This document shows positions 20,027-31,750 of a DNA stretch of 44,517 nt, in pieces; the stretch's first letter is position 1; every line of letters begins with the position of its first letter. A program made the translations under genes and the position numbers. The notes under the pieces are model-generated. The model was not told the DNA's origin, did no database searches, and was given only the letters and a program-made list of their open reading frames with translations. This DNA is from Thermodesulfovibrionales bacterium (lineage in GTDB: Bacteria > Nitrospirota > Thermodesulfovibrionia > Thermodesulfovibrionales > JdFR-86). The stretch covers positions 1 to 44,517 of the forward strand of contig JAUXOF010000080.1 of assembly GCA_030682405.1 (NCBI GenBank). The letters run 5' to 3'.

Positions 20027-21790
20027 TTAGAACAGCCCTTTGACCTTTCCTGTCTCCACATCCACGTCAACACGCCTGTAAGCCGGGTCTGAGCTTGTTC
20101 CGGGCATGAGCTTGATAGCTCCTGCAACTGGTACCACAAACCCCGCGCCCTTGTATGTAAGGATGTCTCTTACGGAGAGCTTCCAGCCTTTGGGCACGCC
20201 TTTGATATTAGGGTTGTCCGAGAGGCTCAAGTGGGTTTTGACCATGCACACGCCTAACTTGGATATTTCAGGGTCTTCCTCCATCTTTTTGGCCTTGGCA
20301 AGGGCCTCAGGCGAGAACTCTGCGCCGTCTGCGCCATAGACTTCTTTTGCAATGGTCTCTATCCTTTGCCTAAGGGGCATGCTCAGCTCGTAAAGGAGTT
20401 TGAAGTTATTCGGCTCGTTGCAGGCATCCACCACTGCGTCTGCAAGCTCAAGCGCACCCTCTCCGCCGAACTGCCAGTGCTTGGAAACGGCGACCCTTGC
20501 ACCGGCGGCCTCGGCAAGCCTCTTTACGGCCTTAATCTCGTTATCAGTATCCGTAAAGAAGGCGTTTACGCATACAACAGGGTTAATGCCTGCCTTTTTT
20601 ACGGTATTGATGTGCTGGATTAGATTTGCCGTTCCCTTTTCGACCCAGCCGACGTTCTCTGACTTGTATTCCTCGGGCATGGGTTTTCCGGGGACGGGAA
20701 TCGGAGCGCCGCCGTGGCATTTAAGCGCCCTTATTGTTGCAACAATGACTGCTGCGTTGGGCTTAAGGCCCGAGAACCTGCACTTTAGGTTCCAGAACTT
20801 TTCAAATCCGATGTCCGCTCCGAAACCGGACTCGGTCACATGGTAATCCCCTAATTTAAGCCCCACGCGGTCTGCTATGATTGAGGACTGTCCGATGGCT
20901 ATGTTTGCAAACGGCCCGGCATGGACGAGCACCGGCTGCCCCTCGATTGTTTGCAGCAGGTTGGGGTTGATGGCTTCGGCCATCCATGCGGTCATAGCGC
21001 CTGCCACGCCGAGGTCCTCGGTGGTAACCGGGTTGCCCTGCTTGTCGTATGCGACCACTATCCTGCCCATTCTCTCGCGCATGTCCTTGAGGTCTGTAGC
21101 AACGGCAAGTATGGCCATGACCTCGGATGAGACGGCAATCGCAAAGCCGGAGTTCATCATGAAGCCGTCCTGCTTTCCGCCAAGCCCGATGACGATGTCC
21201 CTGAGGGCCTGAGCGCAGAAGTCCATAATCCACTTCATCTCTACGTTTCTGGGGTCAATGTTAAGCCTCTTTAGTTTCCTCTTGGCAAGCTGCTCGTCGT
21301 TGTAGTTGAACTCATGCTGCATCCTCGATGTGAGAGCGACCATGGCAAGGTTGTGGGCGTTCATGATGGCGTTTATGTCGCCGGTAAGACCAAGTGAAAA
21401 CGGTGTAAGGGGAATGCACTGGGAAAGCCCTCCGCCTGCCGCAGAGCCCTTGATGTTCATTGTAGGGCCTCCGGAAGGCTGCCTTATGGCTGCTATTACG
21501 TTTTTGCCCCTTTTGCCCAAGCCCTGCGTAAGTCCCATCGTTGTGGTTGACTTGCCCTCGCCGAGCGGGGTAGGGGTGACGGCTGTCACGTCAATGTATT
21601 TGCAGTCCGGCCTGTCTTTAAGGCGGCCAAGAACGCTCTTGAAATCCACCTTTGCGACATAATGGCCGTGGGGCAGAAGCTCGTGCTTTTCAAGGCCGAG
21701 TTTCTCGGCCAGTTCATAGACGGTCTTCATGTTTTTTTCCGCTGCTTCTGCAATTTCCCAGTCTGCGTGTTTCGTCGGATCAATTGGCAT
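20027..21790 (-). CDS. fhs: Formate-tetrahydrofolate ligase
   Basis: 587 residues, slightly longer than the common ~557. The nucleotide-binding loop [11 protein letters not shown] lies at about 73-83, and the family signatures [21 protein letters not shown]-like and [11 protein letters not shown] are present. It condenses formate with tetrahydrofolate using ATP to give 10-formyl-THF, the second step of the methyl branch of the Wood-Ljungdahl pathway. The ATG at 21790 is preceded by AAAGGAGG. It is the last gene of the nuoE-nuoF-fdhA-CNBD-fhs operon, 39 bases after the cyclic-nucleotide-binding gene, and ends at the terminator above. Direct linkage to the formate dehydrogenase implies channelled formate use. 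Confidence 0.97.
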
Positions 21791-21829: not shown

Positions 21830-22285
21830 TCAATAGTTAATCAGTGCGTTTAAGAACTTTTCGTTCATCCGCCTGAGGTTTTTGCTCATAATGAGCGCTA
21901 ACTTTTTTATTATCCGGGAGGCGAGTGAAACCTCCTCCTTCTCCAGCTTCTCAAAGGCATCTTTTGACAGTATCAGCATCTCGGCATTTTCAATGGCCAC
22001 TGCGTTTGCCTCGTGCCTGCGTTTCTCAAGTATCGAAAGTTCTCCGAAGAAATTGCCTACCGGCAGAACCGCAAGGGTCTGTTTCCAGCCGTCAGGGGTT
22101 ACCTTGGTAATCTCTATCTTTCCCGATAGTATCATATAGATGCCCTTTGTATCCTCGCCCTCTTTAAAGAGGAATTCGTCTTTTTTAAAACTGCTTCTTT
22201 GGAGGATTTTTGTCAATTTTTCAAGTTCCGGGTCGCTTATGTCCTCAAAAAGCGTCTGTCTCTTTAGTTCGCCGACACTAATCAT
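21830..22285 (-). CDS. Cyclic-nucleotide-binding-domain protein without DNA-binding domain
   Basis: 151 residues: one CNBD/CRP N-terminal beta-roll (LFEDISDPELEKL, FLFKEGEDTKGIYMILSGKIEI, phosphate-binding-cassette-like FFGELSILEKRRHEANAVA at about 78-96), then a C-terminal helix. The HTH of CRP/FNR proteins is absent, so it is not a classical transcription factor. The phosphate cassette keeps the G-E-L core but replaces the usual RxA/T with HEANAVA, so cAMP binding is uncertain. It overlaps fdhA by ATGA and is followed by fhs. A regulatory or assembly role for FDH or Fhs is inferred from this position only. RBS GAGGAGG is strong. Confidence 0.85.
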   Translation of the reverse strand: MISVGELKRQTLFEDISDPELEKLTKILQRSSFKKDEFLFKEGEDTKGIYMILSGKIEITKVTPDGWKQTLAVLPVGNFFGELSILEKRRHEANAVAIENAEMLILSKDAFEKLEKEEVSLASRIIKKLALIMSKNLRRMNEKFLNALINY

Positions 22286-24972
22286 AATACCTCCTCATAG
22301 GAATTAATTTTTTCTATCTTAACGGCGCATACCTTAAATTCCGGGGTTTTTGCGTAAGGGTCCAAGGCATCGCTTGTTAGTACGTTTGCAGCAGCCTCCT
22401 TGTAGTGCATGGGGATAAAGAGTAAGCCTTCCGAGACCCTTCCGGTTATCAGTGCCTTTAGCCCTATCTGCCCTCTTCTTGATTTAACCCTTATCATCAG
22501 GCCGTCTCTAATGCCCAGCCGTGAGGCGTCCTCTGCGCTAATCTCCACATACGGCTCTCCGGCATGCGCCTCGATAGGGGCAACCCTCCGCGTCATGGAG
22601 CCGCTGTGATACTGGAAAAGGTTTCTCCCTGTAGTGAGGACAAACGGGTATTCGTCGTCAGCAAGCTCGGCAGGCGGTATATACTCAACAGCGCTGAAGG
22701 AAACCCTGCCGCGGGGGAAGCCCGCCTTATAGAGGTAGTCGGTTCCGGGATGGTCCTTTGTGGGGCAGGGCCAGTGGATGCCTTCGCTTCTGATTCTTGA
22801 GTATGAGATGCCGGCCAAGGCCGGCCAGAGGTTCCCGAGCTCTTCAAAGGCAGCCTCTGAAGACGAATAGTTCATAGGGTAACCGAGCCTTACTGAAAGC
22901 TCCGAGATTATCCGCATATCCTCTCTTGCCTCTCCTGGAGGCTCAACGGCCTTTCTTACGAGCTGGACCTTCCTTTCAGTGTTGATAAACGTCCCGTTTT
23001 TTTCGGCAAAACACGTGGCAGGCAGGACAACGTCTGCAAGGGCTGCCGTCTCAGTAAGGAATATATCCTGAACCAGAAGGAAATCGAGGTTTTCGAGCGC
23101 CTTTGTCGTATGCCCGATGTTGGGGTCCGTAATCAGGGGGTTTTCGCCCATTATATAAAGCGCCTTTAGTTTGCCCTCTGCCGCGGACTTTATCATCTCT
23201 GTGGACTTCAACCCTTCTTTGTCAGAAAGCGTTGCTTTCCATGCCTCCTGAAATCTGTTTTTAACCATCGGCATGTCAACCCTCTGGTAGCCGGGATATA
23301 CGTTCGGAAGACAGCCCGCATCGCATGCCCCCTGAACGTTGTTCTGTCCCCTTAAGGGGTTGATGCCCGTGCTCTCCCTGCCTATGTTGCCTGTAAGGAG
23401 CGCAAGATTGGCAATTGCATTGACGTTATCAGTGCCGTGGGTGTGCTGGGTTATGCCCATTGTGTAGAATATCCCCGCCCGCCTTGAGCCTCCATAGAGC
23501 AGGGCGGCCTTTATTATGTCCTCCTTCGGCACACCGGTAATCTTTGAGGCTGCCTCAGGCGTGAATGCCTCTATGGACTTTTTCAACCCCTCAAGCCTTT
23601 CCGTTCTTTCAGTTATGAACTCGTCGTTCTGAAGGCCCTCTTTGAGTATCACATGGGCTATGCCGTTTAGAAGGGCAACGTCTGTGCCCGGCCTGAGCCT
23701 TAAGAATATCTCTGCGAACTTGACGAGAGGCACCTTTCTCGGGTCAGCCACTATAAGCCTTGCTCCCTTTCTTATCGCCTTGAGCATCCTGTTTGCGATA
23801 ACCGGGTGGGTCTCCTTGGTGTTTGAGCCGATTGTGAAGATGACCTCCATACCCTCTATCTCTTTTATGGAATTGGTCATCGCCCCTGAGCCGAATATTG
23901 TGGCCAGACTGGCCACTGTGGGCGCGTGTCAGAGACGGGCGCAGTGGTCGACATTATTTGTGCCTATGGCGGCCCTCATGAATTTCTGGAAAAGGTAGTT
24001 GTCCTCGTTCGTGCATCTGGCAGAGGACAGCCCCCCTATGGAATCAGGCCCGTGTTTTTCCTTTATCTCCTTAAGCCTTTTTGCGGCATATTCAAGCGCT
24101 TCGTCCCACGAGGCCTCCCTGAAACCTCCGGCGGCTTCCTTGATTAGAGGTGTCCTGAGCCTTTCGGGGCTTCCGATAAAGGAGTAGCCGAACCTGCCCT
24201 TTGCGCAAAGCCACCCCTCGTTCCATCCGCTTTCCTTTGAGGTCACCCTCACCACCTCGTTTCTTTTTACATGGAGGGTAATGCCGCAGCCGGTGCCGCA
24301 GTACGGGCATGTGGTATCCACTTCTTTTATGTCCTTCTGTCTTCCCTTATGGGACCAGCCCTTTCCCGTCAAGGCGCCTGTGGGGCAAACGGCAACGCAC
24401 TGGCCGCAGAACTCGCAGTTAAGGTCATGCTCATACGGAGGGCATATCTTGGACTTAAACCCCCTGTATGCGAAATCTATGGCGCTTACGCCCTGAATCT
24501 CTTCGCAGGCATTTACGCACCTTCCGCAGAGTATGCACTTTTCCATATCCCTTTCTATAAACGGGTTGCCGTCTTTCTTTTCGTATATGCGCCTTTCTCC
24601 GGCAAAACGGTTTTCCTTTACGTCATAGAAGTAGGCCAGCTCCTGAAGCGTGCAGTCACCGGCCCTCTCGCAAAGCATGCAGTCGTTGGGGTGGTCGGAG
24701 AGGATAAGTTCCAGTACGGTTTTTCTCAGGTCTTCAAGCGCGGGGGTTGAGGTCGTTACCTCCATCCCCTCGGTTACAGGGGTTGTGCAGGACGTCACGG
24801 GCCTCGGAATGCCCTTTATCTCCACTATACAGAGCCTGCAGCCTCCGAACGGAGACAGCTTCGGATGGTGGCACAATGTCGGTATGGGGATGTTGAGCAT
24901 CCTTGCGGCCTCAAGGACTGTTGCGCCTTCCTTAACCGCACCCGCTTTTCCGTCTATCAGAACTTTTATCAT
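22282..24972 (-). CDS. fdhA: NAD(P)-dependent formate dehydrogenase alpha subunit, selenocysteine-containing
   Basis: One gene read through an in-frame TGA at 23931-23929 (codon 348), giving 896 residues. The context VDHCARL-Sec-HAPTV is exactly the FDH active site where Sec or Cys binds Mo/W. Domains: [2Fe-2S] (C34, C45, C48, C62), His-Cys site (H94, C98, C101, C107), two [4Fe-4S] clusters (C146/149/152/156 and C186/189/192/196), the catalytic-domain [4Fe-4S] (C222/225/229/256), bis-MGD molybdopterin fold and a C-terminal MGD-binding domain. ATG 24972 is chosen because AAAGGAG lies 7 bases upstream; a start at 25014 lies inside the preceding gene. It reduces CO2 to formate or the reverse, with NuoE/NuoF-like partners. 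A gene caller would split it in two. Confidence 0.93.
23893..23931 (-). promoter_or_regulatory. UGA selenocysteine codon and SECIS-like hairpin in fdhA
   Basis: Downstream of the UGA (23931-23929) the mRNA forms GUGGCCA-GUC-UGGCCAC (23916-23900): a perfect 7-bp stem with a GU-containing apical loop. Nineteen bases separate the UGA from the GUCU, which by my count equals the spacing in the E. coli fdhF SECIS. This fits SelB-directed Sec insertion. Confidence 0.88.
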
Positions 24973-24976
24973 TTCA

Positions 24977-26758
24977 TTACTCCTTTGCAACCGCCTTGAA
25001 TTTGCAGACATCAAAGCATGCCCCGCACTTTATGCAGAGGCTCGAATCTATCGTATGGGGCTTTTTCTTCTCCCCTGTTACAGCCCCTGCCGGGCATACC
25101 CTCTTGCACGCCCCGCATCCTGTACAGAACTTTTCAATCACGGAGTACGTAAGGAGGTCCCTGCACACCTTTGCAGGGCATCTGCCTTCAAGGTGGGCTT
25201 CGTACTCTTGCCGGAAGTATTTTAGTGTGCTCAAAATCGGGTTCGGTGCGGTCTGGCCGAGGCCGCAGAGCGAGGCTGACTTTATGTCGCTGCCGAGTTT
25301 TTCAAGGAGTTTAAGGTCATCTTCCGTGCCCTGTCCCTTTGTAATCTTATCGAGTATCTCAAGCAGGCGTTTGGTGCCGATTCTGCAGGGCACGCACTTG
25401 CCGCAGGATTCGGCCTGAGTAAACTGAAGGAAGTACTTCGCCACATTCACCATGCAGTCGTCTTCATCGAGGACTATCATGCCCCCTGAGCCGACTATCG
25501 AGCCGGCCTGAGCAAGGGATTCATAATCCATCTTTATGTCTATCATATCCGCCGGGATGCAGCCGCCCGACGGCCCGCCGGTCTGCACGGCCTTCAGGGC
25601 CTTTTCCCCTTCTATGCCGCCGCCTATGTCGTAGATTATCTCCCTGAGGGGGATTCCCATCGGGACCTCAATAAGGCCGGAGTTCTTCACCTTTCCGGTA
25701 AGGGCAAAGACCTTTGTCCCTTTGGATTTCTCCGTCCCGTAGGAGGAGAACCATCCGGCCCCTTTTCTCATAATGTAAGGAATGTTGGCAAGGGTCTCCA
25801 CATTGTTTATCACTGTGGGTTTTCCCCAAAGGCCGCTGTATACGGGGAAGGGCGGCTTTGCCCTCGGCATGCCCCTCCGCCCCTCTATGGAGGCTATGAG
25901 CGCTGTCTCCTCGCCGCAGACAAAGGCCCCTGCGCCCAGCTTTATCTTTATGTCGAAATTTAAAAAACCCCTGCCGAGGATTTTGTTTCCGAGGAAGTTG
26001 TTTTCCCTTGCCTGCCTTAGGGCAATCTTGAGCCTTTCGACTGCAAGGGGGTACTCGGCCCTTATATACACATAGCCGCCGGCTGCTCCGATGGAGTATG
26101 CCCCGATTATCATGCCCTCTATGACGGCATGGGGGTTGCCCTCTATTACTGAGCGGTCCATGAACGCACCGGGGTCTCCCTCGTCGGCATTACAGATGAT
26201 GTATTTATGGTCGGACTGAATCTTGTTGCATATCTCCCATTTAAGCCCTGTGGGGAAGCCTGCGCCGCCCCTGCCCCTGAGCCCTGATTTCTTTATTATG
26301 TCAATGACTTCTTCCGGGGTCATTGATTTAACCGCAGCCTTTGTCGCCTCGTAGCCGCCGACGGCGATATATGCGTTTATGTCTTCGGGGTCTATATTGC
26401 CGCAGTCCGAAAGCACCACCTTCACCTGTTTTCTGTGGAAGTTGTGGTAATCCTCCCCGACGGTCCATTCCTCTATGGGCGCTCCCTCTATCAGGTGCTC
26501 TTTTACGATGCGGGGCACCATCTCCGAGGTTATGTACTGGTAGGTGGTCTTGTCTCCGTCTATCAGTATGTCAACGAGCACGTCCTTTGCGCACAGCCCC
26601 CGGCAGCCTACCCTGTGCATCGAGCAGCGCTTTTCAACGGACGCCTCAATGCCTGAGGAGCGGAGATGTTCGGTAAACGCCTCCATTACCTGCGTTCCCC
26701 CGGCTGCTATGCCTCCGGTGCCCATGCATATTTTTATGCCGATTTCCTTATTCTTCAT
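24977..26758 (-). CDS. NuoF/HydB-like NAD(P)H-binding beta subunit of formate dehydrogenase
   Basis: 593 residues from ATG 26758 (GAGGA upstream; a longer start at 26782 has no RBS). Domains: thioredoxin-like N-terminus, FMN/NADH fold with RGRGGAGFPTG (161-171) and NADEGDPGAFMDR (190-202), SLBB region, NuoF [4Fe-4S] site in ESCGKCVPCR plus ASLCGLG, and a 2x[4Fe-4S] ferredoxin tail (CTGCGACKRVC; CIKCGACFDVC). The N-terminal [2Fe-2S] set has C11, C52 and C56, but the expected second cysteine is glycine (CMGTGG). That cluster may therefore be absent or altered, unlike in the CODH-linked paralogue. It overlaps the nuoE-like gene and sits 4 bases before fdhA. It probably links NAD(P)H to formate dehydrogenase. 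Confidence 0.93.
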   Translation of the reverse strand: MKNKEIGIKICMGTGGIAAGGTQVMEAFTEHLRSSGIEASVEKRCSMHRVGCRGLCAKDVLVDILIDGDKTTYQYITSEMVPRIVKEHLIEGAPIEEWTVGEDYHNFHRKQVKVVLSDCGNIDPEDINAYIAVGGYEATKAAVKSMTPEEVIDIIKKSGLRGRGGAGFPTGLKWEICNKIQSDHKYIICNADEGDPGAFMDRSVIEGNPHAVIEGMIIGAYSIGAAGGYVYIRAEYPLAVERLKIALRQARENNFLGNKILGRGFLNFDIKIKLGAGAFVCGEETALIASIEGRRGMPRAKPPFPVYSGLWGKPTVINNVETLANIPYIMRKGAGWFSSYGTEKSKGTKVFALTGKVKNSGLIEVPMGIPLREIIYDIGGGIEGEKALKAVQTGGPSGGCIPADMIDIKMDYESLAQAGSIVGSGGMIVLDEDDCMVNVAKYFLQFTQAESCGKCVPCRIGTKRLLEILDKITKGQGTEDDLKLLEKLGSDIKSASLCGLGQTAPNPILSTLKYFRQEYEAHLEGRCPAKVCRDLLTYSVIEKFCTGCGACKRVCPAGAVTGEKKKPHTIDSSLCIKCGACFDVCKFKAVAKE

Positions 26759-27251
26759 CCGTTTCCTCGACAGCGGCGGCATTCTTGTCGGTCTTGCGCA
26801 GCGCCTTTAGCTCTTTCCGTATCTTGTCTGCTCCGGCCTTGCCATGGACTTTCTTATTGATTATTACAACAGGGGCGATGCTGCAAGCGCCCACGCAGTT
26901 GACCTTCTCAAGGGTAAACTCCATATCCGGGGTCGTATCCTGCCCCCCGGCAAGGTTCAACTCGCGCGCTATGCCGTTAATAAGCCTCTCTGAGCCTTTG
27001 ACATGGCAGGCCGTTCCGCAGCATGCGGTGATGATGTTTTTTCCTCTCGGCGTAAAATAGAACTGGGCATAGAATGTGGCAACTCCGAAGAAGGCGCTCC
27101 GTGGAATCCAAAGCCTGTCCGCTATCCAGTTGACCGCCTCTTCGGGTATATAGCCCAACGCATCCTGAACTTCCTGAAGGATGGCTATGACGCCGCCTTT
27201 TTCGCCGATGTGGCCGGCAGCTATTTTCTCTAATGTCTTTAAATCCTGCAT
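26748..27251 (-). CDS. NuoE-like [2Fe-2S] gamma subunit of formate dehydrogenase
   Basis: 167 residues. [2Fe-2S] ligands C77 and C82 (CCGTAC) and C119 and C123 (CVGAC) on a thioredoxin-like fold, after a helical N-terminus. First gene of the FDH/Fhs operon. AGGG is 10 bases before the ATG and a good promoter lies upstream. It overlaps the NuoF-like start by 11 bases. It is paralogous to 1004-1498, so this genome has at least two NuoE/NuoF-type NAD(P)H modules, each tied to a different C1 enzyme. The acidic tail (EETDEE) is not seen in the other copy. Confidence 0.92.
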   Translation of the reverse strand: MQDLKTLEKIAAGHIGEKGGVIAILQEVQDALGYIPEEAVNWIADRLWIPRSAFFGVATFYAQFYFTPRGKNIITACCGTACHVKGSERLINGIARELNLAGGQDTTPDMEFTLEKVNCVGACSIAPVVIINKKVHGKAGADKIRKELKALRKTDKNAAAVEETDEE

Positions 27252-29566: not shown

Positions 29567-29588
29567 CTTCCGAAAGGAGGTTTTTAAG

Positions 29589-30488
29589 ATGGCCGTACTC
29601 ATGAAGGGAAGCCCTGTGGCATCCCTTATATATAAAGAAATCAGGTCAGAGGTGGAGAAGCTTAAAGGCCATGGGGTATCCGTCGGCCTTGCAATGATTA
29701 TAGTCGGCTCAAACGCCTCCTCAGGGCAGTATTTCATAACAACCGGAAACCTGTGCCGCAAGTTAGGCATAGAAGAATACCCGTCCCGCCTGCCTGAAAA
29801 CGTATCCCTTAACGTAATACTCGATACGATTAGGAAACTGAATAACGACGAGCGCATAAGCGGCATACTGGTGTTTCTCCCCCTTCCTTTGCATATCGAA
29901 CAGAGGGCAGTGTTGAACGCCATTGCCCCGGAAAAGGATGTGGACGGCTTGGGCGCCATTTCCATCGGAAGGCTGGCGGCAGAGGAATCAACATACCAGC
30001 TTTTTACGGCAGGCCCCAATTTTTCAATAAAAAACACGTTTCTTCCCTGCACCCCATACGGTGTCATAAGGCTTCTTGAACATTACGGAGTCGAGCTTAA
30101 GGGCAAAGACATTGTTATAGTGGGAAAAAGCCTGACAGTCGGCAAATCCCTTTCCCTTATGATGCTTGCAAAAGAGGCTACTGTAACGGTCTGCCACAGG
30201 GCAACCAAAGACCTTGCCGAAAAGACGCGCAGCGCCGATATCCTGTGCGTAGCCGCAGGCAAACCCGGCCTTATAACGGCGGATATGATTAAGCAAGGCT
30301 CTGTCATCGTTGACATAGGCATAAACAGCCTTCCGGACGGAAGCTTTGCAGGCGATGTTGAGTTTAAAGGAGTCTCAGAGAAGGTATCACATATCACGCC
30401 CGTTCCCGGCGGGGTAGGGCCGGTTACAATAGCCATATTGCTGAAAAACACGGTCGTCTCCACCAAAAGGATGTTCGGCATCCGGTAA
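29589..30488 (+). CDS. FolD-like methylene-THF dehydrogenase/cyclohydrolase homologue with altered active site
   Basis: 299 residues. Family features: GILV-LPLP (93-100), KDVDG (116-120), VGKSLTVGKS in the Rossmann domain and the closing ITPVPGGVGPVT. Against E. coli FolD, the catalytic lysine of YVASK is replaced: Y48-FIT-T52. The conserved glutamine of VQLPLP is F96. The Asp of KDVDG (D119) is kept. About ten extra residues lie before CTPYG, and the usual Pro of the VGRP loop is Ser. Folate binding and dehydrogenase function may survive, but cyclohydrolase activity is doubtful. The start is firm (AAAGGAGG). The stop overlaps the next start as TAATG. It may be a specialised paralogue; a canonical copy could lie elsewhere. 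Confidence 0.85.
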   Translation: MAVLMKGSPVASLIYKEIRSEVEKLKGHGVSVGLAMIIVGSNASSGQYFITTGNLCRKLGIEEYPSRLPENVSLNVILDTIRKLNNDERISGILVFLPLPLHIEQRAVLNAIAPEKDVDGLGAISIGRLAAEESTYQLFTAGPNFSIKNTFLPCTPYGVIRLLEHYGVELKGKDIVIVGKSLTVGKSLSLMMLAKEATVTVCHRATKDLAEKTRSADILCVAAGKPGLITADMIKQGSVIVDIGINSLPDGSFAGDVEFKGVSEKVSHITPVPGGVGPVTIAILLKNTVVSTKRMFGIR

Positions 30489-31750
30489 TGCCCTCAAAGG
30501 AACAAATAGCAGTTGAAAGAAAAATTTTAAAAAACCCTGCGGTCTCTGCGACCTTTGCCGCCGCAAATAGGGTTTTTTTAGTAGGCTCAACCGACGGAAT
30601 ATACCTTGTGGGCGGATACCTCAGGGACCTCGCAAGAGGCGTGCCGCCCCGGAAGATAAAAGATATTGATTTCGTTGTAAGAAGGGGTCTACTAAAAGCC
30701 CTTGTCAATGCCGTTTCTTCGGAACTGGGGGGGACAGTCGTTGAGCTTAAAAAAGAGCGCATGCTCAGAATTGCCTTCAAAGACGGCGCTACTATAGACT
30801 TTTCAATATTTAAAAAAAATATACTTAATGACCTTAAGTCCCGGGATTTTACATTCAATGCCATTTCCTGGTCGCCGGCAGAAGGCATCATAGACCCTTT
30901 TGGCGGCATAAGGGACATCAAGCAGGGGATTATAAGGGGCATTTTAAAGAATAACTTTAAGGATGACCCTTTAAGGCTACTTCGCACATATAGATTTCTT
31001 TCAGAACTCTGCATCCCGATTGAAAGCTCAACGAGGAAGAACATCAGGGCTCTATCAGCTCTCATAAAATACCCTGCGCGTGAAAGGATTACTTTAGAGT
31101 TTCTTAAGCTTCTTAATGGAAAATGCCCTCAAAAAGCCTTGTCAGCAGCGCTAAAGGACGGAATCCTAACTGAAATTATATCCTTATCTTTTAATACATT
31201 AGCTACAAATATTAATATTATTTCTAAAATCGAGCCAAATCTTAATAAAATCCCTAATGTAAGAAGACTTACGGCTGCACGATTCCCGCAGGACCTTTCA
31301 TATGTCGGACTGCTCAGGCTTGAGGCGGTATTGACCGGCTCGGAACTCAAAAAGAGCCTTTTAAGCCTCAGCTCTGCTGTCGGAAAGAGGGTTGACGCTG
31401 TAAGCAGGCTTAGAGGAGAGTTCAGCAACCTGTCAAGGGAAGACATGGGAAGGGAAGACATGGGAAGGGTCTTTGAGCTTTTTGGTAAATGCGGAGATGC
31501 CCTGACAGACCTTTTAATATTAACCGGACGGTTGGATTTAATTAAAGATGCTCAACGGTTCCTCAGGATAAAAAAGAGGGGCATATTGAGTTCAGAGGAG
31601 ATAATGAGGCTGACAGGCATCAAGACCGGCCCTGAACTCGGAAAAATAATAAATAAGATGAAAAGCCTTCAGTTTACCGGAAAGATACGGAGTAGGGCAC
31701 AGGCTCTAAAGCATCTCAAAACATCTAAGAGGCCGGAATTTCCTGCTTAA
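30488..31750 (+). CDS. CCA tRNA nucleotidyltransferase/poly(A) polymerase family protein
   Basis: 420 residues, class II nucleotidyltransferase fold: VGGYLRD at 41-47, the catalytic DIDF (D59, D61), the RDFTFNA and DDPLRLLRTYRF motifs that bind nucleotide and RNA. The C-terminal region is helical without an HD motif. It adds CCA or A residues to tRNA or RNA 3' ends. The ATG overlaps the folD-like stop by one base (TAATG). Local low complexity near residues 317-326 comes from a 15-bp duplication. CCA-adding and poly(A) polymerases cannot be separated by eye, so no symbol is given. Confidence 0.9.
   Translation: MPSKEQIAVERKILKNPAVSATFAAANRVFLVGSTDGIYLVGGYLRDLARGVPPRKIKDIDFVVRRGLLKALVNAVSSELGGTVVELKKERMLRIAFKDGATIDFSIFKKNILNDLKSRDFTFNAISWSPAEGIIDPFGGIRDIKQGIIRGILKNNFKDDPLRLLRTYRFLSELCIPIESSTRKNIRALSALIKYPARERITLEFLKLLNGKCPQKALSAALKDGILTEIISLSFNTLATNINIISKIEPNLNKIPNVRRLTAARFPQDLSYVGLLRLEAVLTGSELKKSLLSLSSAVGKRVDAVSRLRGEFSNLSREDMGREDMGRVFELFGKCGDALTDLLILTGRLDLIKDAQRFLRIKKRGILSSEEIMRLTGIKTGPELGKIINKMKSLQFTGKIRSRAQALKHLKTSKRPEFPA
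31436..31465 (+). repeat. 15-bp in-frame tandem duplication in the cca/pcnB-type gene
   Basis: The unit AGGGAAGACATGGGA occurs twice in a row (31436-31450, 31451-31465), giving REDMG twice in the protein. The copies are identical, which indicates a recent event or assembly-level variation. Confidence 0.85.

Follow-up and report, generated by a model that had tools for sequence, protein, structure and literature searches.

What does a FolD protein do when it lacks both the lysine of the canonical YxxxK motif and the glutamine of VQLPLP? The question is raised by a FolD paralogue encoded in contig JAUXOF010000080.1 of a Thermodesulfovibrionales bacterium, whose analysed stretch of 44,517 nucleotides we refer to as the window. 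The open reading frame is complete and begins with ATG behind a good Shine-Dalgarno sequence (Table 1). Both FolD domains are full-length and in order, with PF00763 scoring 104 bits and PF02882 207 bits against curated Pfam cut-offs of 32.8 and 27 bits. An AlphaFold model has a mean pLDDT of 92.3, with low confidence mainly in an insert, and its best solved match by Foldseek is C. jejuni FolD (3p2o, TM 0.88-0.94). With two domains above cut-off and a FolD fold, the protein belongs to the FolD family. Its best score against the NCBIfam equivalog models for bifunctional FolD is 312 bits, below the cut-off of 423, a shortfall that is weak evidence because those models are lineage-specific. An Rfam search found no riboswitch upstream of the gene, and a promoter scan of the same region found no site on the + strand, with counts at chance level.

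Table 1 Features of the window and of related folD loci.
Feature	Coordinates	Strand	Basis
AGGAGG ribosome-binding site and spacer, 5' of ATG	29573..29588	+	sequence
FolD paralogue, 299 aa, Lys54 to Thr and Gln98 to Phe (E. coli numbering)	29589..30488	+	ORF, domains, alignment, model, fold match
YFITT, codons 48-52; Thr for Lys of canonical YxxxK	29730..29744	+	sequence, alignment
VFLPLP, codons 95-100; Phe for Gln of canonical VQLPLP	29871..29888	+	sequence, alignment
Clade-specific insert before CTPYG, about residues 131-152	29979..30044	+	alignment; model low-confidence at residues 131-150
tRNA nucleotidyltransferase / poly(A) polymerase-type gene	30488..31750	+	PF01743 and PF12627
Formate-tetrahydrofolate ligase (fhs)	20027..21790	-	PF01268, 775 bits
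Formate dehydrogenase-like set: catalytic subunit (22282-25014), NuoF-type and NuoE-type subunits	22282..27251	-	
Long divergent FolD	L186:14691-16061	+	open frame
Long divergent FolD	L187:6410-7816	-	open frame
Long divergent FolD	L188:5965-7392	-	open frame
FchA-linked FolD of family f19, example	L152:3823-4686	-	alignment
Syntrophomonadaceae folD arrays	L053:3820-6884; L064:1339-5614; L071:4127-6032		

Aligned with E. coli FolD and with FolDs of solved structure, the window protein has Y48, T52, F96 and D119 at Tyr50, Lys54, Gln98 and Asp121. The protein therefore departs from bifunctional FolD at the YxxxK lysine and the VQLPLP glutamine, as a sequence-only reading of the locus had proposed. 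The insert before CTPYG that it described is also real: between Pro125 and the position-147 column, the window protein has 37 residues versus 22 in E. coli. Of the 157 rows aligned, 46, the window protein included, make up one clade and 96 are canonical FolDs. Clade members have Thr (31) or Ile (15) at the Lys54 column and Phe (24) or Leu (22) at the Gln98 column. Neither Lys nor Gln occurs at these columns in any of the 46, whereas both are present in 96/96 canonical FolDs, an absence that exceeds chance. Residues shared by clade and canonical proteins at 97% or more include folate-stacking Tyr50, Asp121, P100, P102, G166/S168/G172, His190 and the PVPGG-G loop; the GxSxxVG cofactor-binding loop is retained in the clade as well.

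Other positions set the clade apart. N75, R106, K180 and the insert residues E133, S134 and Q137 are fixed in the clade and rare in canonical rows, and R161 is also clade-fixed. The three insert residues are conserved in 98-100% of the clade and give nearly every member an E-S-(x2)-Q signature. Canonical DGFHP is replaced by DG(L/Q)G(A/S). An active-site lysine at another position had been named as evidence that would count against the sequence-only reading; in the alignment, neither the catalytic helix nor the VQLPLP loop contains a clade-fixed lysine that canonical FolDs lack.

The paralogue is widespread in its phylum. In a scan of genome contigs, the 11 Nitrospirota relatives recovered were 51-63% identical and had neither the Lys nor the Gln, and the next matches, at ~45% identity, were canonical FolDs; spread outside Nitrospirota is judged from this one scan, which finds close relatives. 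A copy with E < 1e-94 is present in 44 of the 198 Nitrospirota genomes searched, among them two further members of the organism's own family, at 72-73% identity. The clade covers at least two class-level groups and is missing from some families. All listed copies have open frames save L098, which has one stop. Close pairs of clade copies yield dN/dS of 0.037-0.110, similar to the 0.045-0.062 of canonical or FchA-linked partner FolDs (FchA being a stand-alone cyclohydrolase), which argues that these are working genes under strong purifying selection.

We then placed the clade among other FolDs. A tree of 154 rows recovered it with 100% SH-aLRT support, beside a sister group (97%) of 12 Nitrospirota FolDs with both residues retained, here called type A. 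A second tree, of 62 rows and built without the insert or columns 54 and 98, supported the clade at 100/100 and its grouping with type A at 96/93. The phylogeny with active-site mapping that the earlier reading had called for thus puts the window protein in a monophyletic clade lacking both residues, whose sister is a bifunctional Nitrospirota FolD with both. Given this grouping, the two residues would most simply have been lost once, on a long stem within the bifunctional Nitrospirota lineage. Since the bifunctional sister already has DGFGP, and Val in place of Arg234, some of the pocket change predates the loss.

A standard FolD accompanies the paralogue in its own genome (2.03 Mb, 99.8% complete), as had been predicted. 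The genome's one further FolD, at C7 (locus L001), has the Lys and Gln and adjoins 5-formyl-THF cyclo-ligase, folE and a MetV-type protein in a folate/methyl-branch operon. FchA was absent from a search of this genome, and the FolD at C7 is its separate source of cyclohydrolase. In the tree this FolD is of a second kind, type B, nearly identical across many Nitrospirota. Partner sequences inspected in 32 of the 44 carriers comprised 11 type A, 10 type B, 8 FolDs beside FchA and 3 divergent long FolDs. Ten further carriers have a second FolD match; G080 has FchA; and neither a second FolD nor FchA was found in G063, an 83% complete genome. Since nearly every carrier has a partner FolD or FchA, the cell is not asked to live without cyclohydrolase.

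Three genomes (G160, G176 and G152) were considered as cases in which the paralogue is the sole FolD. We rejected this because each has a divergent long FolD with YxxxK and Gln, the only FolD with both residues found there. These proteins are open frames of 457-476 aa with N- and C-terminal extensions, and they keep YVGMK and FQLP. In G160 and G176 they share the folate-gene neighbours of type B and occupy the standard FolD's operon slot.

Family f19 offers a natural control. In 8/8 genomes with FolD next to FchA, that FolD carries Ala at the Lys54 column, Met at Gln98 and Arg at Leu99; these genomes also contain the present paralogue. One f19 genome, G053, is without FchA but has a second FolD, which is a type B protein with both residues. 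In this family, loss of the Lys and Gln goes with an outside cyclohydrolase. In Syntrophomonadaceae, we observed tandem arrays of two or three folD genes in which one copy is canonical and the rest are altered at Tyr50, Lys54, Gln98 or Asp121. These arrays possibly encode mixed oligomers, and their altered copies show that the Lys and Gln have been lost elsewhere too.

The coupling to a nucleotidyltransferase-type gene was correctly described, with that frame opening at the final base of the stop codon of folD (a one-base overlap at 30488), but the idea that it bears on the enzyme is not supported, as the pairing recurs only in the three f1 carriers (G000, the window's own genome, G032 and G130) and neighbours elsewhere are unrelated. 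Neighbour clustering of 50 loci found no clade-wide conserved neighbour and none tying the clade to folate metabolism. Partners were family-local: the nucleotidyltransferase in f1, AtpB/AtpE-like and MBL hydrolase-like proteins in f6, a phosphoribosyltransferase-like protein in f3, and CheA- and GlpD-like proteins in f19. We therefore rejected a conserved neighbour as a functional clue; there is no guilt by association. Because the own genome also encodes an 868-aa A-adding-type poly(A) polymerase-type enzyme at C33, the gene downstream of folD probably encodes its CC-adding partner, one half of a split CCA system unrelated to folate chemistry. The short and the 868-aa protein together suggest that tRNA maturation is divided into CC-adding and A-adding steps.

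The sequence-only reading had found a C1 enzyme odd at this locus. It is not, since fhs and the formate dehydrogenase set lie 2-10 kb from folD, separated from it by two unrelated genes and encoded on the opposite strand. The distance between fhs and the paralogue is also short in G130, at ~6 kb. The formate dehydrogenase catalytic subunit has an in-frame TGA at 23926-23928 (- strand) in HCARL-U-HAPTV, a typical selenocysteine context. The site (23876-23934, - strand) has a SECIS_3 match of 34.5 bits with an E of 6e-6, below the 63-bit cut-off. We read the subunit as selenocysteine-type, a gene that a plain ORF list splits in two. Two further metabolic links were considered and rejected. GcvP scores above the Pfam cut-off in 0/68 genomes of the same class, so glycine cleavage seems absent from this class sample. 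ThyX is absent from the own genome and two carrier relatives and present in many other carriers.

Mutants of known enzymes help to gauge the effect of the two replacements. E. coli FolD K54N keeps ~19% of dehydrogenase activity with cyclohydrolase undetectable, and Q98H keeps 8% and ~1%, respectively (PMC5688156). For human MTHFD1, the K56E data have been interpreted as an effect on binding in the dehydrogenase, without a clear role for the residue in catalysis (PMC9173628). Lys54/56 is essential for cyclohydrolase and only partly needed for dehydrogenase in both E. coli and human enzymes (PMC5688156, PMC9173628), which qualifies the earlier statement that Lys54 is needed for cyclohydrolase/dehydrogenase chemistry. 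The same residue pattern occurs in yeast Mtd1, a monofunctional NAD-dependent dehydrogenase according to the titles of Barlowe & Appling 1990 and Wagner 2005. Its sequence equals 1edz at every residue and aligns Thr57 and Tyr98 with the Lys54 and Gln98 columns. The window protein is Mtd1-like in this sense, having Thr and an aromatic residue at these positions and intact folate and NAD(P) sites.

An intact dehydrogenase half combined with Mtd1-like residues at the hydrolysis sites leads us to infer a dehydrogenase-only FolD that leaves hydrolysis to a partner enzyme. This possibility, already raised by the sequence-only reading, is the best supported, and from sequence, structure prediction and published mutants of other enzymes we judge it rather probable. 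Such an enzyme would bind tetrahydrofolate and NAD(P) and convert methylene-THF to methenyl-THF and back, in a pocket that is more hydrophobic and unable to support hydrolysis. Methenyl-THF would then pass to the standard FolD, or to FchA in f19, or hydrolyse spontaneously. In the window organism, the paralogue would serve the methyl branch of the Wood-Ljungdahl pathway, its gene lying close to fhs and the formate dehydrogenase genes. As for the cofactor, the human enzyme holds the 2'-phosphate of NADP with Arg173/His196/Ser197 (PMC3368264), and MTHFD2 uses Arg201/Arg233 to hold phosphate or 2'-phosphate (PMC9173628). The clade has Lys180, His203 and Arg/Lys204 at columns where other FolDs hold these groups, so the basic pair Lys180 and Arg204 of the window protein would fit either NADP(H) or NAD plus phosphate. 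Counting against a dehydrogenase-only role are the remoteness of Mtd1, which has Glu for Asp121, the lack of a partner in the 83% complete G063 and the absence of a clade-wide folate neighbour. In addition, each single change cuts E. coli dehydrogenase so far that the double loss could leave little activity unless other changes compensate.

The paralogue might instead be a weak or inert FolD-like binder of folate and NAD(P) that works as a sensor or joins the standard FolD as a partner subunit. In favour are the loss of both residues on which hydride transfer and hydrolysis are set up, the presence of a competent enzyme in nearly every carrier, and an insert signature that, with N75, R106 and R161, could form a contact surface; the Syntrophomonadaceae arrays likewise mix canonical and altered copies. 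An inert scaffold, however, would not need Tyr50, Asp121 and the nucleotide loops to be conserved as in canonical FolDs, and Thr and Tyr at the two sites are compatible with dehydrogenase catalysis in Mtd1, which makes a weak or inert binder unlikely in our estimate. A dehydrogenase for another substrate, whether a different reduced pterin or the methylene/methenyl form of a modified folate, would account for a pocket remodelled at Lys54, Gln98, Phe123, the DGFHP motif and the insert. We regard this as more doubtful still: DGFGP and the Val at the Arg234 position are already found in the bifunctional sister, and the pterin-binding Asp121 is invariant.

Full bifunctionality, with other residues standing in for Lys54 and Gln98, is very improbable. 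An unlisted residue or an ordered water could substitute, and one study argues against Lys88 of MTHFD2 acting as the base (PMC9173628), but the invariance of both residues in canonical rows, the abolished cyclohydrolase of E. coli K54N (PMC5688156) and the lack of a clade-specific lysine near the catalytic helix in the alignment all oppose it. Least credible is a decaying duplicate heading towards a pseudogene. Two lost catalytic residues and a patchy distribution over families would suit decay, but not the low dN/dS, frames open in all but L098, a clade spanning at least two classes or the restricted replacements. A broader alternative, less likely than not in our estimate, is an old Nitrospirota-specific paralogue without known folate catalysis, acting as a folate/NAD(P)-binding regulator, a partner subunit or an enzyme for a different C1 carrier; the conserved E-S-(x2)-Q insert would then be its new functional element.

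Because the residues for one reaction are swapped while the rest of the active site is kept, this second copy of a core folate enzyme, retained in much of one phylum, is probably a one-reaction version of a two-reaction enzyme. Family-based annotation will label the protein bifunctional FolD, and for cyclohydrolase that label is probably wrong. A 2024 gene-family survey reports that, in prokaryotes, no major phylum had an ancient duplication in its stem (PMC11064299); our clade, over at least two class-level groups and with its own active-site signature, looks like such a duplication. Together with the f19 FolD/FchA pairs, it provides independent natural experiments on the residues that separate the two FolD activities.

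Among known systems, Mtd1 has a substitution pattern that is repeated here in bacteria. Both proteins have Thr at the Lys position, an aromatic residue at the Gln position and a longer stretch before CTP. Mtd1 differs in its remote sequence (E 4e-10), in Glu for Asp121 and in ending its second Rossmann strand with VDV where the clade keeps CH(R/K); its origin is independent, and descent from Mtd1 is not implied. Section 7 of PMC11064299 gives fungal MTD1 cyclohydrolase only, whereas the references it cites describe a monofunctional dehydrogenase, and the wording is probably a slip in the text. Bacterial bifunctional FolD shares with the paralogue two domains, the fold, Tyr50, Asp121, the nucleotide loops and ~44-50% identity; the paralogue is set apart by loss of both residues in 46/46 rows, by a longer loop before CTPxG bearing the E-S-(x2)-Q signature and by being an extra copy. 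The FchA-paired FolD of f19, an acetogen-type split whose fchA-folD arrangement is also found in A. woodii (PMC3315566), likewise lacks Lys54 and Gln98 and draws its cyclohydrolase from another protein. Unlike the paralogue, it belongs to a separate tree lineage, has no insert and adjoins fchA.
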